Shown piece after piece: positions 6,599 to 32,312 of a DNA stretch of 34,596 nt (the first letter of the stretch is position 1; every line of letters begins with the position of its first letter). The translations under genes and the position numbers were made by a program. The notes below the pieces were generated by a model that did no database searches, was not told the DNA's origin, and worked only from the letters and a program-made list of their open reading frames with translations. Source of the DNA: Candidatus Kapaibacterium sp. (lineage in GTDB: Bacteria; Bacteroidota; Ignavibacteria; Kapaibacteriales; UBA2268); NCBI GenBank assembly GCA_026418625.1, contig JAOABA010000048.1, positions 1-34,596 on the forward strand. Direction: 5' to 3'.

Positions 6599-7222
6599 TT
6601 ATTTTAGGTTAATCTTATAAATTTTTAAATATTTTACATTTCCAAGCCATCTGACTGACTTTTGGTCTTGAGGATAAATAATTGTTCCGGGTTTAAAAAT
6701 GATTGCTTCCTCTTCTTTCGATAGGTTTTTGAATTGTAAATAAACTTTTATATCAACAATTTGTTCCAATTCTTTTTCTACTGGTTTTAAATTTAATTTT
6801 CCCGGCTTTCCTTTCATTTCGAATGCTATAACTGTATCTCCAACTGAACCATAAACCCTTTTACTTAAAAGATAAGGTGGAATTTTGGTAGTATTATTAT
6901 CATAATCATAAAAGGTTGTAAATATAGAATTACCAATAGAGTCAATTCCAATAATTATAAGCTGTTTTCGTTCAATTTCCTGTAATTGTTTGATTTGAGG
7001 TTCGATTAAATCAATAATTTTATAACAAAGATATTTACCGTAAGATTTTTTAGAAGAAGAGAAAAATTGAACGGTTTCAGCCTTATAAAATTTAGGTAAA
7101 TCAATGCTATAAAGATTAATTGTAGCAATTTCTTCTAATGTTTCTGAATGAAGGTAGTTCAGAGGAAATATAAAAAAAATAAAAATTATAATGCTTTTTA
7201 TTGAAATATACTTTTTTATCAT
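6599..7222 (-). CDS. exported protein of unknown function
   Basis: A 207-residue protein with a clear N-terminal signal sequence (hydrophobic residues 9-25, ending near LHSE). The mature part is mostly beta-type sequence. It includes a stretch reading IIGIDSIGNSIFTTFYDYD, and a C-terminal stretch PQDQKSVRWLGNVKYLKIYKI that faintly recalls the last strands of small periplasmic molybdopterin-binding-fold proteins. That resemblance is weak, and no cofactor cysteine is placed convincingly. It is the first gene of a two-gene minus-strand unit with the FTCD fusion (4-bp gap) and is divergent from panD. The function is unknown, and a link with folate or histidine metabolism would be speculation from proximity alone. 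Confidence 0.6.
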   Translation of the reverse strand: MIKKYISIKSIIIFIFFIFPLNYLHSETLEEIATINLYSIDLPKFYKAETVQFFSSSKKSYGKYLCYKIIDLIEPQIKQLQEIERKQLIIIGIDSIGNSIFTTFYDYDNNTTKIPPYLLSKRVYGSVGDTVIAFEMKGKPGKLNLKPVEKELEQIVDIKVYLQFKNLSKEEEAIIFKPGTIIYPQDQKSVRWLGNVKYLKIYKINLK

Positions 7223-7740: not shown

Positions 7741-8502
7741 TTGAGTTTGAGCATAATAATCCTTGCAGCAGGTAAGGGAAAAAGAATGAATAACCCTTCA
7801 ATGGCAAAAGTTATGGCTTTGCTCGATGGTAAGCCACTTATTAACTATGTTCTGGATACAGTAAAAAAAATTAATGCTGAAAAATTATTTCTTGTGATTG
7901 GTTATCAAAAAGACTCAATCATTGAATTTGTATCCACATTGGATATAGATAATTTATATTTTGTAGAACAAAGGGAACAATTGGGGACTGGTCACGCTGT
8001 TGCTCAAGTTAAGCCTTTTTTGAATGGTTGGAGTGGTGATTTGTTAATTTTAGCTGGAGATGTTCCCTTGATTAGTTATGAAACATTAACGAGATTTCTG
8101 GAAGAACATAAAAATTCTAAGGCTGACCTTAGTGTCTTAACTGCTAAAATAGCAAATCCTTTTGGATATGGTAGAATTATCAGAAATATAGATAATTCAT
8201 TTAATAAAATTGTTGAAGAGAAAGATGCTGATGAAAGCCAGCGAAAAGTAAATGAAATAAACAGTGGTGTTTATGTTGTCAAATCCGAATTTCTTTTCGA
8301 AGCACTCAAAGAACTCAAAAATGATAACAATCAGAAAGAGTATTACCTTACAGATATTGTAGAGATTTTCAGACAAAAGAATCGAAAGGTTGAAGCTTTT
8401 CTTATAGCTGATTATGATGAAATTTTTGGTATTAATTCACAAGAGGATTTGTTAGAAGCCCAAAAAATTTTAAACTCAAAAAATCAGAATAAAGTTTATT
8501 AG
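7741..8502 (+). CDS. GlmU-like nucleotidyltransferase, single domain
   Basis: A 253-residue sugar-phosphate nucleotidyltransferase (Rossmann-like NTP_transf_3 type). The NTP-binding signature is LAAGKGKRMNNPSMAKV near residues 8-24. GTGHAVAQV, LAGDVPLI and EKDADESQRKVNEINSGVYV match the uridylyltransferase half of GlmU. The left-handed beta-helix acetyltransferase half (about 200 further residues) is missing; the stop is clean and downstream sequence shows no remnant. The usual Pro-Lys of the signature is Ala-Lys here. The start is TTG, with ggag 8 bases upstream. It likely makes UDP-GlcNAc or a related NDP-sugar; the acetylation step would then need a separate enzyme. Sugar specificity is not certain. 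Confidence 0.82.
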   Translation: MSLSIIILAAGKGKRMNNPSMAKVMALLDGKPLINYVLDTVKKINAEKLFLVIGYQKDSIIEFVSTLDIDNLYFVEQREQLGTGHAVAQVKPFLNGWSGDLLILAGDVPLISYETLTRFLEEHKNSKADLSVLTAKIANPFGYGRIIRNIDNSFNKIVEEKDADESQRKVNEINSGVYVVKSEFLFEALKELKNDNNQKEYYLTDIVEIFRQKNRKVEAFLIADYDEIFGINSQEDLLEAQKILNSKNQNKVY

Positions 8503-9666: not shown

Positions 9667-11334
9667 ATGAAACTAAAAATCATTCAAATAATATTAATCT
9701 TTCAATTTATTGTTTATTGGACTTTTGCTCAAGAGTCTGTTGTGCTTAAATCAGCAAGAGCTGAACTTAACAGAACAATGACTGAACTCAAAAGTCAGCC
9801 AAGACCACCATATTTTATATCTTATAGCATTAACGATGTTCATACTGTTAGGATAACTTCATCATTCGGTAAATTATTAACTATTGACTCTAACCGAAGA
9901 AGAACCCTTGATATAGATTTGCGAGTTGGTGATTATCAGCTTGATAATACACATATAATAAGAGGAGCCTCATTTAGCTTTGGCTCGTCAAGAAGTTCAG
10001 TGGATTTGCCTCTGGAAGATGATGAATTGGCTATAAGATCAGCAATATGGAGTGGAACTGATAGAAGTTATAAAAAAGCAATAGAGACTTATGAAAAGGT
10101 TTTAGCTAACAAAGCAGTAAAAGTGCAGGAGGAAGATACATCAGCGGATTTTTCGCGTGAAAAACCTCAAAAATATATTGGTGAAGAAATTAAATTAAAA
10201 TTAAATACATCAGAATGGATAGATAGACTTAATAGGATATCATCGCTCTTTTCTGCAAATGGTTGGATTTATAGCGGTATGGTTAGCTTAAATGTCGAAG
10301 TTACAACCAAATATTTTGTCAGTTCCGAAGGTGGTCTTCTTCAATATTCTGAACCATCTTACAGAATATTTATCTCTGGAAGAACAAAAGCTGACGATGG
10401 TATGAACCTTCCTTTGTATAAAAGTTATTTTTCATTTAGTGCTGATGGTCTTCCAAAAGAAGAAACATTAATTAATGACACAAAAAAAATGATTGATGTT
10501 CTTGGTAAACTACGAACAGCTCCTTTAATGCAAACTTTTTCAGGTCCGGCAATACTTTCCGGGGAAGCTTCCGGAGTATTCTTCCATGAAATATTTGGTC
10601 ATAGGGTTGAGGGGCATCGACAGAAAGATCCTAACTCAAGCCAAACCTTCAAAGGTTTCGAGAATAAATCAATACTACCAGATTTTATTGATGTATTGTT
10701 CGATCCTACGATAAATAAGCTTCGTGGTATTGAGTTATCGGGCTATTATTTATATGATGATCAAGGAGTAAAAGCTGAAAAAGTTGTCAGCGTTGAAAAT
10801 GGTATATTCAAGAATTTCATTATGTCTCGCTCTCCAATCGAAAATTTCCCAAGATCGAATGGTCACGGCAGAAAACAAGCAGGATATAGCGCTGTTTCAA
10901 GACAATCAAATTTAATTGTAGATGCCAAAAAGACTGTCCCTGTTAATGAATTGAGAAATATGTTAATAGAGGAATGTAAAAAACAGGATAAAGAATTTGG
11001 TCTTTATTTTGAAAAAGTTCAGGGAGGATTTACTTTCACAGGCAGAACAATACCAAATGCTTTTAATGTTCAACCAATCCTTGTTTATAAGATCTATGTT
11101 GATGGCAGACCTGATGAATTAGTTCGTGGTGTGGATCTTATTGGAACTCCACTAACAACTTTTTCAAAGATTATTGCAGCTGGTGATGATATCGGTGTTT
11201 TTAACGGTATATGTGGAGCTGAATCTGGCGGTGTTCCAGTGTCAGCTTGTTCGCCTTCGCTATTAGTTTCTATGATTGAAGTTCAAAAAAAGACAAAATC
11301 TCAAGCAAAACCACCATTATTACCATCACCATAA
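9667..11334 (+). CDS. exported TldD-like metalloprotease, intact zinc site
   Basis: A 555-residue member of the TldD/PmbA (peptidase family U62) group. A signal sequence covers about residues 1-21, unlike the cytoplasmic TldD of enterobacteria. The metalloprotease motif HEIFGHRVEGH begins at His307, with His312 as second ligand and Glu308 as general base. A conserved cysteine, Cys516 in ICGAESGGVPVSA, occupies the place of the third zinc ligand of TldD. It leads a tight three-gene unit with a membrane protein (9-bp gap) and a ligand-less paralogue, mirroring the TldD/TldE arrangement. By analogy it should cleave small or unstructured peptides, here in the periplasm. The substrate is unknown. 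Confidence 0.85.
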   Translation: MKLKIIQIILIFQFIVYWTFAQESVVLKSARAELNRTMTELKSQPRPPYFISYSINDVHTVRITSSFGKLLTIDSNRRRTLDIDLRVGDYQLDNTHIIRGASFSFGSSRSSVDLPLEDDELAIRSAIWSGTDRSYKKAIETYEKVLANKAVKVQEEDTSADFSREKPQKYIGEEIKLKLNTSEWIDRLNRISSLFSANGWIYSGMVSLNVEVTTKYFVSSEGGLLQYSEPSYRIFISGRTKADDGMNLPLYKSYFSFSADGLPKEETLINDTKKMIDVLGKLRTAPLMQTFSGPAILSGEASGVFFHEIFGHRVEGHRQKDPNSSQTFKGFENKSILPDFIDVLFDPTINKLRGIELSGYYLYDDQGVKAEKVVSVENGIFKNFIMSRSPIENFPRSNGHGRKQAGYSAVSRQSNLIVDAKKTVPVNELRNMLIEECKKQDKEFGLYFEKVQGGFTFTGRTIPNAFNVQPILVYKIYVDGRPDELVRGVDLIGTPLTTFSKIIAAGDDIGVFNGICGAESGGVPVSACSPSLLVSMIEVQKKTKSQAKPPLLPSP

Positions 11335-11343
11335 AAAGTTAAT

Positions 11344-11886
11344 ATGGATTTCATAAACGAACAAAAGCTTTTTACAGAAAAACAATTAATAAGACAGCCA
11401 TGGCTGATTGGTATAGTTCTTTTTACTTGTATTATTATACTTGCCGTATTCGGGTTTGGTTTTTATGAACAAATAATCGTTGGAGTTCCTTTTGGAACAA
11501 ATCCTATGAGCAACAATAAAATTATTATTTCTTTTATTTTTGCTCTAATTTTTAGTATAGGTTTACCTTTACTATTATTTACCAGCAATTTACAGACAAT
11601 AATTACTAATAGAGGTATTTATTACAAATATTTTCCATTTATTAACAAGTTTAGAGTAATTTCAAAAGAAAATATTAGAAATTATTATATAAGAAAATAT
11701 AAACCTATTGGTGAATATTTAGGTTGGGGGATAAGATATAGTCTCAAAGGCAATGGTATTGCGTTCAACACAATGGGCAATATTGGTCTTCAACTCGAAT
11801 TAATAAATGGTAAAAAAATTCTTTTTGGCACTCAAAAGCCAGACAAAATAATCGAAGTTATGAATAAAATTATGAAGGATAAATAA
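11344..11886 (+). CDS. small membrane protein (DUF6141-like)
   Basis: A 180-residue protein with two membrane segments, about residues 21-45 and 60-80, followed by a soluble beta-rich domain of about 100 residues that recalls bacterial PH-like domains. The features QPWL near the start, the loop IIVGVPFGTNPM, and IGEYLGWGIRYS followed by GLQLELINGKKILFGTQKP match my memory of the uncharacterised DUF6141 family. The stop codon is directly followed by the ATG of the next gene, and its own start is 9 bases after the TldD-like gene. It is therefore embedded in that unit and may anchor or regulate the protease pair; this last point is inference. Confidence 0.7.
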   Translation: MDFINEQKLFTEKQLIRQPWLIGIVLFTCIIILAVFGFGFYEQIIVGVPFGTNPMSNNKIIISFIFALIFSIGLPLLLFTSNLQTIITNRGIYYKYFPFINKFRVISKENIRNYYIRKYKPIGEYLGWGIRYSLKGNGIAFNTMGNIGLQLELINGKKILFGTQKPDKIIEVMNKIMKDK

Positions 11887-13680
11887 ATGAGAAGAAATTC
11901 TGGAAATAACATTACAAAAATAGTTTTTATTATTATCCTGTTTTTCAGTTCAAGGGCTTTTTTGTTCACTCAGGATAATGAAATTTTCAGAGCTATGCAG
12001 GATGAACTTCAAAGGTCAATGAACGAGTTAAAAATAGAAAATCTTCAAAAGCCATATTATATTGAATATACATTAAAGATTAAGCAGTCTCACGAAATTA
12101 AATCCTTTCTTGGCAGCATAACAGAAAAAACAAGCCCAAAAATAGCTAATTTGTCAGTTGGGGTTAGGGTTGGAGATTACAAATTTGACAATACTAATTT
12201 TTTTGATTTTGGTATGAGTTTTTTTGGTAGCGGAGATGAGGAAGAATCCTTCAGAAACAGAAGAATACCGATAGAATTGGACTATAAGACTATTCGTAGA
12301 GAACTTTGGCTGGCTACCGATGCAGCTTACAAGCAAGTTTCTGAAACTTTTGCCAAAAAACAATCAGTCCTTAAAACGAGATTGATAAATGATACTACTC
12401 ACGATTTTATAAGACTTGAACCCGAAAAATTGAGTGATATAAAGAAAATACCTGAATTTGACTCAAAAAAATTTGAAAATTATGTCAAAAGAATTTCGAA
12501 CATATTCAAAAGGTATCCTGAATTTACTTCTTCAATTGCTTTGGTTGAATATATTCCAGAAACAACCTACTACATTAATTCCGAAGGAAGACAATATATT
12601 AAAACAGATTTCTATGCTGGTATTGAATTAGCAGTTACGACACAAGCTGATGATGGAATGCCACTTTCTTCTTTTTACACCTGTATACTAAAAGAACCAA
12701 ATGACATTCCCTCATTGGACTCTTTGGAAAGAGCTGCAAAAGCAATTGCTGATAATTTACAACAACTAAGAATGCAAAAGACATTAGAAGAAGCTTACTC
12801 TGGTCCTATTATTTTTGAGGGACAAGCTGCTGCTGAAATTTTTGCACAAGTATTTGCTCCAAATCTTGTAACTCAAAGAGAACCTTTGACTGAAACAGGA
12901 AAGCAAACAAGCGATAGATTTATGGCTTTTCAAACAAAAATTGGTGGTAGGGTTTTACCTGAATTCCTCTCTTTAAAAGCGACTCCAACAAAGGAAAAAG
13001 CTTATGGAGTTCCTCTTGTTGGTAGTTATAAAATTGATGATGACGGTGTTCTTGCTCAAGATGTTGAACTTGTTAAGGATGGCTTCTTAAAAAATCTTCT
13101 TTCAAGCCGTGTTCCAACTAAAAGAGTCAGAACTACTAATGGTCATCAAAGGGGTGGTGCTGCAATGATAAGCGTTCTTGAGCTTGAATCTGACGAAAAA
13201 CATTCTCTTACAAGATCTGAATTAAAGAACAAATTAATTCAATTATGCAAAGATAGAGAGCTGCCATTCGGTATTATCGTTAGAAGAATGTTCAATCAGA
13301 ATGTTCAACTAACTACACTTTTCCAGCTTAATCCGGGGGATTTTTCATTTTCTTTTGGAGGTGGCAGTCAACCAAAACAACCATTGATTGAAGTATACAA
13401 AGTTTATCCAGATGGCAAGGAAGAGCTAATCAGAGGTTGCGAAGCAAAAGGTTTTACTCAACAAACTTTCAAAGACATTCTTAATGTCGGAAAAGAAAAA
13501 TATGTTCTAAACTATCTTGCTCCAGCAATTACATCACCATTTATGTCTGGAGGAAGTCAATATCTTGCTTCTACTGTCATAGTCCCTGACTTGTTATTCG
13601 AAGATGGTGAAATTACTCCTGTTGAGCAAGATTTTCCCAAACCGCCTATTATCAAGAATCCGTTAACGGAAAAAAAATAG
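11887..13680 (+). CDS. exported TldE-like paralogue lacking the zinc site
   Basis: A 597-residue TldD/PmbA family protein related to the gene at 9667-11334. It shares the opening pattern (MQDELQRSMNELK after a signal sequence of about 26 residues), the VRVGDYKFDNT block, TQADDGMPL, the YKVYPDGKEELIRG block and the C-terminal arrangement. At the catalytic position it reads AAEIFAQVFAPN: both histidines are replaced (Ala316, Gln321) while the glutamate remains (Glu317). The cysteine-containing block is replaced by LAPAITSPFMSGGSQ. All three expected ligands are thus absent. This parallels TldE/PmbA, the inactive partner of TldD, and suggests a heterodimer. Loss of activity is inferred from the residues. 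Confidence 0.82.
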   Translation: MRRNSGNNITKIVFIIILFFSSRAFLFTQDNEIFRAMQDELQRSMNELKIENLQKPYYIEYTLKIKQSHEIKSFLGSITEKTSPKIANLSVGVRVGDYKFDNTNFFDFGMSFFGSGDEEESFRNRRIPIELDYKTIRRELWLATDAAYKQVSETFAKKQSVLKTRLINDTTHDFIRLEPEKLSDIKKIPEFDSKKFENYVKRISNIFKRYPEFTSSIALVEYIPETTYYINSEGRQYIKTDFYAGIELAVTTQADDGMPLSSFYTCILKEPNDIPSLDSLERAAKAIADNLQQLRMQKTLEEAYSGPIIFEGQAAAEIFAQVFAPNLVTQREPLTETGKQTSDRFMAFQTKIGGRVLPEFLSLKATPTKEKAYGVPLVGSYKIDDDGVLAQDVELVKDGFLKNLLSSRVPTKRVRTTNGHQRGGAAMISVLELESDEKHSLTRSELKNKLIQLCKDRELPFGIIVRRMFNQNVQLTTLFQLNPGDFSFSFGGGSQPKQPLIEVYKVYPDGKEELIRGCEAKGFTQQTFKDILNVGKEKYVLNYLAPAITSPFMSGGSQYLASTVIVPDLLFEDGEITPVEQDFPKPPIIKNPLTEKK

Positions 13681-13691
13681 CTGGTTGATTA

Positions 13692-14876
13692 TTAAAATTC
13701 TTTAAAGAAATTTATCGTTGATGCTCCCCATAGAATAAATGCATCTTCGTGGGAAATCTGATTGTTTTTTAAAAGTTCCAATCTGATACTATTGCTTCCG
13801 TTTTGCTTGAATTTTTCGTATGTTTTCTCAGAAATTGAATATGGAACTATTTCATCTCCAGTGCTATGGAAAAGAAAAATTGGATTTTTAGGTGACCAAT
13901 CATCTACACTATTCTTTTTTAAAATTGATTTGATTTCTTCTTCACCACTGGAATTGAAACTATCAAGAAATTCTTGTTTCACAAGTATTTTTATGGAATA
14001 AGATAGTTGCCTATTTATTTCAAAAAGATCTAATGTTCCATCGAAAAGATTCCTTATTCTTGAATCAAAAGGTGGATTAAAGATTTTACTGAGATTGAAA
14101 TTTTTATTTTCTCCAGCTTCCATTCCTAATAATATGTAAGGAATAAAACAGGGATAATCAACAAAATTTTGATTTAGATAGAAATTTGCGGCATCATAAA
14201 GATTATAAGCCCCTGCTCCGGCTGAAGTTGCCGTTACTTTGAATTCTGACGGGTATAAATCACTAATTGCTTTGTTAAGAGCAATTGAAGAATAGCCACC
14301 CTGAGAGTAACCCATTAGAAATAGCTTTTTATCATATTGAATTTTCTTTTGATTCAGGAATTCATAAGCAGCACGAAGCATATCAACACAAGCATTTACT
14401 GTGCTTTGATAATGATGGTAAGGGTGGAATTTATCAGAGCTTTCTCCAAAACCAATATAATCTGCAACAAAAACTATGTATCCAAAAGCAGCTGGATAGA
14501 GTGATTCCAGAGCAGCAAATCCAAGATTACTGGCAGCTCCATCTGTTTTTTTTGAATAGGAACCGTGTTGAAAGGATATTACGGGTGGAACGATATCTAA
14601 ATTTTTTGGTATTAATACTAAGCCAGAAGCCTTGATTTGTTTACCCATAGCATCTTTGGTGTAATAAACCAGTTTGAATGCATCAATCGGATGTTTGAAT
14701 TCTAATTCTATTTCCAATAATTTTGATATCTGTTCAAGCTGTTCTATACTGAATTCTTGCTTAAACTCAAAACTTATAAGAACTGTCTCATAAGTATTGA
14801 CAGGGTTAGTGTTTTCTTTTGAACAGGAAAATAAAAAAAACAGCCAAATGATTATCATTATTTTCGTTATTTTCAT
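13692..14876 (-). CDS. lipase/esterase-like lipoprotein, alpha/beta hydrolase
   Basis: A 394-residue lipoprotein: hydrophobic start with lipobox LFSC and Cys18. The alpha/beta hydrolase fold is clear from the nucleophile elbow GYSQGG (Ser191), the oxyanion-side motif SFQHGSY near 101-107, Asp341 in HSTGDEIVP and His376 in ISHEDAF, in the usual Ser-Asp-His order. The layout (VADYIGFGESS before a YHHYQST stretch, then the elbow) matches the secretory lipase / polyester-hydrolase-like group. It likely hydrolyses esters at the envelope. It converges with the TldE-like gene with an 11-bp gap. The substrate is unknown. Confidence 0.82.
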   Translation of the reverse strand: MKITKIMIIIWLFFLFSCSKENTNPVNTYETVLISFEFKQEFSIEQLEQISKLLEIELEFKHPIDAFKLVYYTKDAMGKQIKASGLVLIPKNLDIVPPVISFQHGSYSKKTDGAASNLGFAALESLYPAAFGYIVFVADYIGFGESSDKFHPYHHYQSTVNACVDMLRAAYEFLNQKKIQYDKKLFLMGYSQGGYSSIALNKAISDLYPSEFKVTATSAGAGAYNLYDAANFYLNQNFVDYPCFIPYILLGMEAGENKNFNLSKIFNPPFDSRIRNLFDGTLDLFEINRQLSYSIKILVKQEFLDSFNSSGEEEIKSILKKNSVDDWSPKNPIFLFHSTGDEIVPYSISEKTYEKFKQNGSNSIRLELLKNNQISHEDAFILWGASTINFFKEF

Positions 14877-14911: not shown

Positions 14912-15622
14912 TTATTTTATCAATTTTTTTTGTTCTATCAATTCAATATTGATTGGTTTATATAGTAAATCAAAACTTCTCCAATTACTATCATTGATCT
15001 TCTTATAAACAATGTGTAAACCCAAAGTATTTTCTGACATTTTTTGAGTATAACGATTAATACTTTCCCAATCAGTTATATAATAATTAGATGATTCGTC
15101 AAGCTTTCTTTCTGTTTTTTTTATTCTTTCATATACTAAATCGTATACATAATTTTTAATGAAATAATAAAATGATATTTTTGGAGGTAATGGAATTGGT
15201 GTAGTTGGTTCATATTCTATAACATAAGATCGTCCACTTCCAATTTCAGACAAGGTTCTATAACCTAAGAAATAATTATAGGTAGGGATAATCTCAGATT
15301 CATTAATAGTTCGACTAGTTGAATATTTTTGATAAGGATTACGTTCACCAATAGGGAACATTATTAATTTTCCATCATCAGAGGCAGTAAATAGTCTATC
15401 GTTAAGAATTATTGTTTCATCGCTTAAATTCTTGATAATTAAATATACACTTGAGTCTTGGTGAATCCTCTTTATTATATCAACTTGTAGCAAACCATCA
15501 CCCGTAACTCCGCAGTTAATGCACTTGGTATCATATTGTAAATAGCGATCAATTCTATAACTCTTACATGCTATAAAAATAAATGAAAAAATAATAAAGA
15601 AGTATACAATTCTTGTTTTCAT
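14912..15622 (-). CDS. lipoprotein of unknown function
   Basis: A 236-residue predicted lipoprotein: hydrophobic residues 5-18, lipobox FIAC with Cys19. A CINCG pair (Cys34, Cys37) follows soon after the anchor. The rest is beta-rich with no recognised domain; a central stretch (YLIIKNLSDETIILNDRLF) looks like an immunoglobulin-like beta sandwich. It is separated from the upstream CNNM-like gene by about 80 bp and from the lipase by 35 bp, all on the same strand. No function can be assigned. Confidence 0.6.
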   Translation of the reverse strand: MKTRIVYFFIIFSFIFIACKSYRIDRYLQYDTKCINCGVTGDGLLQVDIIKRIHQDSSVYLIIKNLSDETIILNDRLFTASDDGKLIMFPIGERNPYQKYSTSRTINESEIIPTYNYFLGYRTLSEIGSGRSYVIEYEPTTPIPLPPKISFYYFIKNYVYDLVYERIKKTERKLDESSNYYITDWESINRYTQKMSENTLGLHIVYKKINDSNWRSFDLLYKPINIELIEQKKLIK

Positions 15623-30241: not shown

Positions 30242-30271
30242 AAAATTCCCGTCAGAGCGGGAATTTTTTTT
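30242..30271. terminator. bidirectional intrinsic terminator
   Basis: A perfect 10-bp stem (aaaattcccg at 30242-30251, cgggaatttt at 30258-30267) with a 6-base loop is flanked by T-runs on both strands. It lies between the converging flagellar run and the outer-membrane gene, touching the stop codon of the latter. It can serve both directions. Confidence 0.9.
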
Positions 30272-32312
30272 AATTATCGAATGCCCAATGTAAAGAGATT
30301 CTTAAATTCCTGTTATACATCGGATAATATTTCAAGTAATAATAATTAAATGAGAGAATATTTTGTAGTGAAATATTAACGTAAACTGTGCCCAATCTGG
30401 CTTTTCCATAAATATTGATACCATTAAAAAAGAATTGAGATTTTTCCTGTTCCCCTTGATGGAGAAATTCAGGTAATATATAATTTCTATGAAGTGGATT
30501 AAAGTTCATAGCTCTGTGTGGAGTTATGATTAAAGCATCAAAACCAAGTCTTACATAACTTCTTCCTCGGCTTATTTCATAATAACTATCAAAGGAAGGA
30601 TAAAGTAATGGAAATATGTCCGTTTCAATGCCATTTAAGAAAAATTTTTGAACTATCAGCTTAATGTGGGAATGAAAATTTTTAAATAATGAAAATTTTA
30701 ACGAAAGACTTGCTCCAAAACTTGTTAAATCATCTTCATTAGTAAATGATAAATCCTGAATAATATTATTTTTATAAATTGGTTTCGATATAATAGGTGA
30801 TTGAGTCTTGCGATAAAAAAAATCAGATGATAAATTGAATAATTCATTTGACCAGTTTATTTCACCAAGAAATAAAATCCCGGTTTCTTTTGAAAGATGA
30901 AATCCTTCTGCAGGTGTGGGAATTCTATCGAACTTGGAAAAATCAATCATAATATTTGAATTATTATTAAAAATATACTTGAATTTTGAACCAGCATTCA
31001 AAAAATAGTAAGTATTGCTTACGCCTGTTCTAATACCACCTGAAATAGAAAAATTTTTAGAAAAAGGATTTGTTAAAAAATGCCCAAAAGCAGACCAGTT
31101 TAAGTTATCCAGTCCATTATAATAAATTCCTTGTTCATTTTTGAGGTAATTTATTTCACCCCCGGATTTTAAATGAAATAGTGAACTTATTGCTAAATCG
31201 ATAACTGCATTTAATCCCAATAAGATAGAATAGTTGTTTGTAAAAATGATTGAGTCGTTATCATTCAGAAATATCTCATTTTGTCTTTTTTGATGCCATT
31301 CCGAATGTGAAAAAAATAAAGAGGATTTGAATATGTTTGATTCAATAGGGTCAAAAGAGTTTAATATTTCTTCAGAAAATTCTGAGGAATCAGTCTTGTA
31401 ATTATCACTTAAAAGCGAAGTAAATGTCAGTGTTAAATCGTGCTTGAAAACTCGTTCATTCAATTGATCATATTTTGGATTAGCAATTAATTCATCGTAT
31501 AAATTATCTGAATTTATTTTATCAATGCCACCATTAGTGCCTTGTCCGTGATTGGTGAAAATATCAAACAAAGAAATATTGATTTTATCGTTGATGTTCC
31601 ATCTTAGACCTCCTCGTAAGTTCCAAGAGTCCATCCAAGTATTGTCAAAACGTCCTTTAACAGACATTCTGCGATAACCAAAGGTAAAATTAACATTTGG
31701 CATAAAATTCTGGCTAAAAACACCGTCAGATGCTAAAAAGTCATAAGCAGCTTGGGAAAACCAAATTTTAGTATAAGGCTTTCTTGTATTATAAATTCTT
31801 TCCTGAAAATTAATAAGAGAACTTGACGAGTTGTTTGAAAAAATTATAGCGTCAGATCCTGAAAAAATTTCAATGTTCTCGAAATACTCTACCGGAAAAG
31901 TCTCAAAATTAAAAAATGGGTATTGGAAATCATTAATTTCTCTACCATTGAAACGAAAAGATAAGCCAGACGGAAAACCACCGAAAAGTGAAAATGAATT
32001 AAGGTTTGCATAATTACCAAGATTCAATGGATAAACAGGTAACTTTTCGGTGAAAATATCCATTAGGGAAGTATAATCTGAAAATAAGATGGAATCCTTG
32101 GAAATGATTAAAAAAGGGTTAATTTTTTTATTTGAAATTTTTCCGTGAATTGTTAATGGTTTGAAGAAAAGAATACTATCATTTCCTGATTTAATCGAAA
32201 CGGCTGAATCAAGTTTATTGTCAACAGTTAATGAATCCGAAAGTGCAAAGACATAATAGGAATAATTTACAAAGATAAAAACTAAGCAAATTATTTTTAT
32301 TATGATTTTCAC
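30270..32312 (-). CDS. TonB-dependent receptor-like outer-membrane protein (putative)
   Basis: A 680-residue exported protein with a signal sequence (hydrophobic residues 3-23). Residues of about 70-180 resemble a TonB plug: SLMDIFTEKLPVYPLNLGNYANLNSFSLFGG, FRFNGREINDF and VEYFENIEIFSGSDAIIF, which follow the order of plug strands. The rest alternates hydrophobic strands with Asn/Ser-rich loops and ends with an aromatic-rich strand (NLRISLHWAFDN), as in outer-membrane barrels. No TonB box was recognised, and the protein is divergent. It follows gyrA on the same strand with a 30-bp gap. The substrate is unknown. Confidence 0.65.
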   Translation of the reverse strand: MKIIIKIICLVFIFVNYSYYVFALSDSLTVDNKLDSAVSIKSGNDSILFFKPLTIHGKISNKKINPFLIISKDSILFSDYTSLMDIFTEKLPVYPLNLGNYANLNSFSLFGGFPSGLSFRFNGREINDFQYPFFNFETFPVEYFENIEIFSGSDAIIFSNNSSSSLINFQERIYNTRKPYTKIWFSQAAYDFLASDGVFSQNFMPNVNFTFGYRRMSVKGRFDNTWMDSWNLRGGLRWNINDKINISLFDIFTNHGQGTNGGIDKINSDNLYDELIANPKYDQLNERVFKHDLTLTFTSLLSDNYKTDSSEFSEEILNSFDPIESNIFKSSLFFSHSEWHQKRQNEIFLNDNDSIIFTNNYSILLGLNAVIDLAISSLFHLKSGGEINYLKNEQGIYYNGLDNLNWSAFGHFLTNPFSKNFSISGGIRTGVSNTYYFLNAGSKFKYIFNNNSNIMIDFSKFDRIPTPAEGFHLSKETGILFLGEINWSNELFNLSSDFFYRKTQSPIISKPIYKNNIIQDLSFTNEDDLTSFGASLSLKFSLFKNFHSHIKLIVQKFFLNGIETDIFPLLYPSFDSYYEISRGRSYVRLGFDALIITPHRAMNFNPLHRNYILPEFLHQGEQEKSQFFFNGINIYGKARLGTVYVNISLQNILSFNYYYLKYYPMYNRNLRISLHWAFDN

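Follow-up and report, generated by a model that had tools for sequence, protein, structure and literature searches.

A predicted exported TldD/TldE-like pair, with one active-type and one catalytically dead partner, in Candidatus Kapaibacterium and other bacteria

According to PMC5810440 and PMC10885120, TldD/E is a hollow heterodimer in which one subunit binds the metal and into which unfolded peptides thread, and the characterised roles that they describe are leader removal and antitoxin turnover; PMC10885120 calls the family M103. Here we describe a related pair of genes, A and B, in a stretch of 34,596 nucleotides from Candidatus Kapaibacterium sp. (contig JAOABA010000048.1, positions 1 to 34,596; called the window below). 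A and B flank a gene for a membrane protein, M, and both encode proteins with signal-like N-termini. By analogy with TldD/TldE they probably form an exported heterodimeric peptidase, the dimer, its metal and its activity all being predictions of that analogy. The features of the locus are as follows.

9667 to 11334, + strand: gene A, predicted signal-bearing TldD-like metallopeptidase of 555 amino acids, with HEIFGH at residues 307 to 312 and Cys516
9667 to 9729, + strand: A N-terminus, signal-peptide-like; hydrophobic stretch with an AXA-like end at about residue 21 (end set by eye)
10585 to 10602, + strand: A codons 307 to 312, HEIFGH (His307, Glu308, His312), from the alignment to TldD
11212 to 11214, + strand: A codon 516, Cys matching TldD Cys454, from the alignment
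11344 to 11886, + strand: gene M, DUF6141-like protein of 180 amino acids, two helices and then a PH-like domain; optional passenger
11887 to 13680, + strand: gene B, predicted signal-bearing, catalytically dead TldD-fold sister of A, 597 amino acids
11887 to 11970, + strand: B N-terminus, signal-peptide-like by the simple rule (end set by eye)
12844 to 12861, + strand: B codons 320 to 325, AQVFAP, opposite HEIFGH of A; without the metal ligands and with Gln for Glu

A, M and B are three complete open reading frames (ORFs) on one strand, with gaps of 9 bp between A and M and 0 bp between M and B. A preliminary description of this DNA had read the region as two related TldD/PmbA genes around a two-helix membrane protein at these spacings, and the ORF coordinates, the PmbA_TldD_3rd matches and the hydrophobic helices agree with it. 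PmbA_TldD_3rd (PF19289) is matched by both A (84.7 bits) and B (43.9 bits; cut-off 22), and the two proteins are 30% identical across their full length (BLASTP). In the alignment to TldD, His307, Glu308, His312 and Cys516 of A correspond to TldD His262, Glu263, His267 and Cys454, with a 14-residue offset derived from the residue numbers in PMC5810440. The HEIFGH motif and Cys516 had been read correctly from the start.

These residues are conserved in A. Among the best-scoring loci of a whole-protein search, HEIFGH and CGAESG are present in all 30 A genes, the window's A included. In a second, partly overlapping set of proteins longer than 400 amino acids, HExxxH is found in 18/18 A (17 HEIFGH and one HEILGH) and in 0/26 B. 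In the phylum of a Terriglobia bacterium (G200; G numbers denote genomes and L numbers loci), three A genes of greater divergence have HEVMGH or HEVLGH. The A rows of our 80 named loci give 74/74 for HEIFGH and 73/74 for Cys516, the sole miss being a gap; because FFHEIFGH was among the six seed patterns of the named-locus search, the 74/74 is partly selection, and the counts from the whole-protein search are preferred. In 16 of 72 full A proteins there is only one Cys after residue 30, which fits a metal ligand better than a within-chain disulfide.

B lacks this site. Residues 307-HEIFGH-312 of A align with 320-AQVFAP-325 of B, both in BLASTP and in a profile-profile comparison of 74 A and 59 B rows (E 7.9e-115), so that the histidines of A are replaced by Ala320 and Pro325 and the catalytic Glu by Gln321. 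At position 321 of the 59 B rows, two of which are gapped there, Gln is found in 45/57 and Glu in 2/57; His is found at position 320 in 0/57 and at position 325 in 1/57. There is no Cys opposite Cys516 in the window's B, nor among the five commonest letters of the other B rows. The loss of both histidines and the Cys had been recognised in the preliminary description, but its register for them, Ala316 and Gln321, was four residues off. Its suggestion that B keeps the catalytic Glu as Glu317 does not hold, as the alignment puts Gln321 opposite Glu308 of A; Glu317 is kept in 42/57 rows and is not the catalytic Glu position. Taken together, a domain above the cut-off in both partners, HExxxH with a distant Cys in A and the absence of all three ligands from the window's B indicate, at the level of sequence, that A is an active-type member of the TldD/TldE family and B its catalytically dead sister.

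B nevertheless appears to have the complete fold. A and B align over 548 columns in the profile-profile comparison, and a model of B made from 53 B rows has a pLDDT of 91.0 and a pTM of 0.89. This model matched ten TldD/TldE/PmbA entries in all (VIA Z 23.0-30.1): TldD chains at Z 29.8-30.1, with a root-mean-square deviation of 3.4-3.6 over 437-439 residues, and TldE/PmbA chains at Z 23.0-26.2. The next row had Z 6.0, and no fold family other than TldD/TldE/PmbA stood out in the structure comparison. B is thus modelled as a full-length TldD-fold protein that is closer to TldD than to TldE.

The same genome also has an ordinary pair (G000, C14), a TldD of 474 amino acids with HEAVGH and no signal-like start and a TldE of 441 amino acids. 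In a tree of 85 rows, whose protein starts were set heuristically, A and B together (46 rows) split from TldD, TldE and the twin-arginine (Tat)-type pairs with an SH-aLRT of 100. A 42-row tree was subsampled from this one by dropping nine long or odd rows and keeping ten A, ten B and three and three Tat-type rows; in it the A+B clade has support of 100/100, and the TldE-type proteins form their own group, 100/99 with the Tat-type ones. Forcing A with TldD against B with TldE lowered the log-likelihood by 188.5 and was rejected (p-AU 1.3e-5), although long branches can mislead this test. The proposal of an active/dead, signal-bearing pair distinct from TldD/TldE is borne out by the separate clade and by the signal-less TldD/TldE encoded in the same genome. 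A is monophyletic in the 85-row tree (96). In the 42-row tree it is not, one Planctomycetota row falling outside, but A monophyly is not rejected (p 0.39), and a further tree, made without the Tat-type rows and L153_D and with the L097, L242, L250 and L251 pairs and L241 added, gives 77/95. B may therefore be sister to A or nested within A. Because the A+B clade stands apart from TldD/TldE, the active/dead asymmetry seems to have arisen twice, with catalysis lost at least two times under these trees.

The pair was surveyed in 60 genomes, the window's own and its relatives, in which some A or B copies are partial or split over contigs. A is present in 58 and B in 59; all 58 genomes with A also have B. 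In one genome (G008) B is present, close to the start of a contig, and A is not; another (G012) has neither. In the 58 genomes A and B are adjacent in 47 and apart in 11, in one case 150 kb away from each other on the same contig. Among the 80 named loci, where gene starts are heuristic, B lies beside A in 66 and is fused to it in two; of the other 12, three (L089, L101 and L107) end 154 bases or less after A, and in the remaining nine the sequence extends far enough but no B adjoins A. In the window's taxonomic order, PF19289 is matched by nothing but A and B in 10 of the 12 genomes with matches listed, so that TldD/TldE should not hide the effect of a deletion in them.

Surveys of the window's class and of two other phyla used an alignment on the L051 fusion (see below) as the profile; identities suggest that this alignment placed the B rows over the A half, and every one of 15 trial fusion alignments (three MAFFT settings, five mixes) had one group wholly on the wrong half. 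The class survey of 149 genomes, which overlaps the set of 60, found the family in 43, with two matches in 40. The remaining three are two genomes cut by contig ends (G165 and G482) and one with a divergent, frame-broken gene (G180). In the phylum of G200, 28 of 119 genomes match at E 1e-20, 20 of them above 300 bits. Nineteen of these 20 have at least two such matches, and the five checked are A and B by profile; the other eight matches are weak (74-87 bits), and the five inspected are TldD-type with HEACGH. In the phylum of a Gemmatimonadetes bacterium (G206), the family is present in five of 101 genomes, four with two matches and the fifth ending at a contig edge. The pair is therefore conserved far beyond this genome, as found in 58/60 genomes and across phyla. 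The survey of gene order, named in advance as a point on which the proposal could fail, found the A-B order conserved and the A-M-B order conserved in part only. A-B is an old unit, patchy beyond the window's relatives, yet nearly always paired where present.

A and B are also found as natural fusions. In the window's order there is a fusion in one genus (L156), to which L051 is 93% identical. A fusion in a Bacteroidetes lineage (L098) has 38% identity to L051, and the phylum of G206 has fusions in G410, G353 and, in part, G417. Fusion in at least three lineages argues that A and B work together. At two loci, L170 (G017) and L252 (G295), A is split over two frames beside B, by a frameshift or a sequencing error.

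Export was judged with a rule of our own, a hydrophobic 12-mer without Asp or Glu near the N-terminus. By this rule a signal-like start is present in 69/75 A and 57/58 B proteins of the named loci and in 17/17 A and 23/26 B proteins of the relatives; several of the misses look like wrongly picked starts. In the comparison rows, which include a few duplicate entries for this genome's ordinary pair, it is present in 1/29 TldD-type and 0/26 TldE-type proteins. A twin-Arg pattern was found in 0/75 A and 0/58 B. Additionally, the A half of the fusions begins with a hydrophobic stretch (2.53 in L051, 2.98 in L098 and 2.57 in L156), and no strongly hydrophobic stretch is found at the junction (1.1, 1.38 and 1.1, respectively), which is an independent hint of export. 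The signal sequences noted on both proteins at the outset are thus supported as signal-like N-termini by the simple rule, and Sec-type export of A and B is the likely route.

M is a different matter. At E 0.001 it is found in 22 of the 60 genomes, at 23 places, 13 of them between A and B and 10 elsewhere. It does not lie between A and B in 34 of the 47 adjacent pairs; in one genome (G007) the gap between A and B is 490 bp and holds no M-like ORF. The A-M-B order occurs in 8/80 named loci. The window's M scores 25.5 bits against DUF6141, below the cut-off of 27, and each of the nine aligned M members matches the family with an E of 0.1 or lower (best 1.3e-8); a full-text literature search for DUF6141 found no paper. 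A model of M (pLDDT 88.5) has two long helices and a domain. In the VIA comparison of this domain the rows titled PH or PH-like have Z 8.4-9.0 and the highest-scoring row (Z 10.2) belongs to a domain from an unnamed protein; as a best Z of 7 to 8 is common by chance, the PH match is good and not overwhelming. In Foldseek the only match at E up to 0.001 is 8kei_D (E 8.8e-4), a chain of the NOX2-p22phox-EROS complex; EROS we take to be itself a two-helix PH-type protein.

The nine M members have five to eight Lys/Arg after helix 2, against none to two in the loop between the helices, which by the positive-inside rule predicts a cytoplasmic domain. As this would put the domain across the membrane from A and B once these are exported, M is unlikely to be a subunit, and it would therefore be at most a neighbour. 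This is where we depart from the preliminary description, which had made M the dedicated membrane partner of the pair: of the 58 genomes 13 have M in the A-B interval, M is found elsewhere at 10 of its 23 places, and its soluble part is PH-like and, by charge, cytoplasmic.

Taken together, the data suggest the following arrangement. A and B would be secreted via Sec and would assemble outside the inner membrane into a hollow TldD/E-like heterodimer. In this heterodimer A would provide the metal site (His307, His312 and Cys516) and the general base Glu308, and B, the dead sister, would close the shell. Unfolded peptides would thread in and be trimmed. M, where present, would be no more than a neighbour, a membrane protein whose PH-like domain is in the cytoplasm. 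We also lean, with some reserve, towards the view that the TldD fold has given rise to an active/pseudo-protease pair a second time, independently, and that this pair works outside the cytoplasm; an active TldD-like ancestor would have been duplicated, one copy would have lost its activity and each copy would have come to depend on the other. On that view, the pair would act as a shell that trims peptides in the periplasm of some Kapabacteria, Ignavibacteria, Acidobacteria, Gemmatimonadetes and others.

Several observations weigh against an exported heterodimeric peptidase. The signal calls depend on a simple rule and on heuristic start codons; a stricter rule, which adds a preceding Lys/Arg and an AXA-like site, gives 62/75 A and 55/58 B in the named loci and 16/17 A and 23/26 B in the relatives. 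The G353 and G410 fusions have a weaker N-terminal stretch (2.06 and 1.62; junction 1.44 and 0.83, respectively). When the ORFs around the 80 named loci were clustered and the largest 30 clusters considered, no functional neighbour conserved across phyla was found besides A and B, which leaves no genomic hint to the substrate; clearing stray peptides and maturing an exported peptide are candidate roles. There are also relatives without a partner. G248, met in the survey of the phylum of G200, has a solo relative of A and B (L241, 4268-5917) that carries HEAVGH and has neither a signal-like start nor a B; it is on a long branch with unsettled position in the further tree and possibly represents the state before the duplication. 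G180 has a divergent A/B-type gene with HETPGH (L256), broken into three frames, and no partner within the 7 kb fetched. Finally, PMC5810440 records that TldE-type proteins alone crystallise as homodimers and that a TldD homodimer was reported active.

The homodimers of TldE, the 11 of 58 genomes in which A and B are apart and the metal motif of the solo L241 would all fit an alternative in which A and B are exported and each forms its own homodimer, A as a stand-alone peptidase and B as a peptide-binding protein or chaperone. The fusions in at least three lineages and the presence of B in 58/58 A genomes, even when unlinked, speak against this, and we regard it as unlikely. The pair could also be an amidase or deacylase acting on a small molecule or a cell-wall-linked peptide, like the N-deacetylase members of the TldD/E family; the title of one review places N-deacetylases and TldD/TldE peptidases in a single protein family. 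Among the clusters listed no biosynthetic or cell-wall gene recurs beside the pair across phyla, which is weak evidence, and we consider such an activity a little less likely still. It is very unlikely that A, M and B are a dedicated three-protein membrane complex: the gaps of 9 and 0 bp and the A-M-B order in 13/60 genomes and 8/80 named loci would favour it, but M is missing between A and B in 34 of the 47 adjacent pairs, 10 of its 23 places are elsewhere and its PH-like domain is cytoplasmic by charge. Least credible is the reading of A and B as nothing more than a TldD and a TldE with acquired signal peptides. They share the fold and the active/dead pattern with that pair and some TldD have Tat-type starts, yet the separate A+B clade, the p-AU rejection, the genome's own TldD/TldE and the closer resemblance of the B model to TldD chains all argue otherwise.

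If the exported heterodimeric peptidase is real, several phyla have a threading-type peptidase that works outside the cytoplasm. The tree in addition provides a natural replicate of an enzyme gaining a dead partner, with one fold, the same outcome and two origins.

Around the pair, synteny with panD, a nucleotidyltransferase and gpmA was seen in no loci outside the wider group to which the window belongs. The nucleotidyltransferase of the window (7741-8502; 253 amino acids) is like the N-terminal part of GlmU without the acetyltransferase part, and its cluster is near A in 25 of the 80 named loci. Convergent with B is a Secretory-lipase/alpha-beta hydrolase-like gene with a lipoprotein-like start (13692-14876, - strand). 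Three further ORFs of the window on the - strand, at 30270-32312 (680 amino acids), 6599-7222 (207) and 14912-15622 (236), have no Pfam match at the thresholds used.

Other relatives of TldD were met in these surveys. Loci L146, L147, L148 and L149 of the window's phylum, and L213 of the Pyrinomonadaceae genome of L100, encode TldD-like proteins of about 500-560 amino acids with HESVGH, some with a Tat-type start (MKRRDF...). TldE-like genes without a signal lie alongside, in tandem arrays of up to three pairs, and by sequence the active subunit is apparently exported and its partner is not. L203 (G210), in a genome with 20 PF19289 matches, is TldD-type with HEAVGH and a Tat-type start and adjoins a TldE-type gene. 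At L249 (1737-4049), a single reading frame runs through CoaE (Dephospho-CoA kinase) and a HEACGH-bearing TldD protein, and Pfam matches confirm CoaE and the three TldD domains; the same joining at L245 to L248 was judged by eye from the frame ends.

The Tat-type pairs resemble A and B in having an export-type start on some TldD members, the twin-Arg pattern being present in 5/30 TldD-type rows. The HESVGH group differs from A and B in that it has PmbA_TldD_1st, has a TldE-like partner without a signal and groups with TldD/TldE. The fold and the active/dead principle were known already, and Tat-type starts are met on some TldD proteins as well. What may be new, as we claim with caution, is that the pair arose separately, that both partners would be exported by a Sec-type route and that the pairing extends across phyla; a literature search judged by titles and the starts of abstracts found no paper treating an exported TldD pair.

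The closest comparison is with E. coli TldD/TldE (PmbA). That pair likewise has a shared C-terminal domain and confines HExxxH and a distant Cys to one of its partners, and B has the same fold. In contrast with TldD/TldE, A and B have signal-like starts, fall in a separate clade and include a partner that was seemingly inactivated independently. No match to PmbA_TldD_1st was obtained for A or B of the window or for two fusions, and both A and B have a conserved C-terminal tail. Within A, the tether Lys456 of TldD is replaced by Ala518, and the position of TldD Asp272 is His317 in the window's A. Arg313, Arg318 and Lys320 are present in 74/74 A rows, and A perhaps has a swapped salt bridge relative to TldD.

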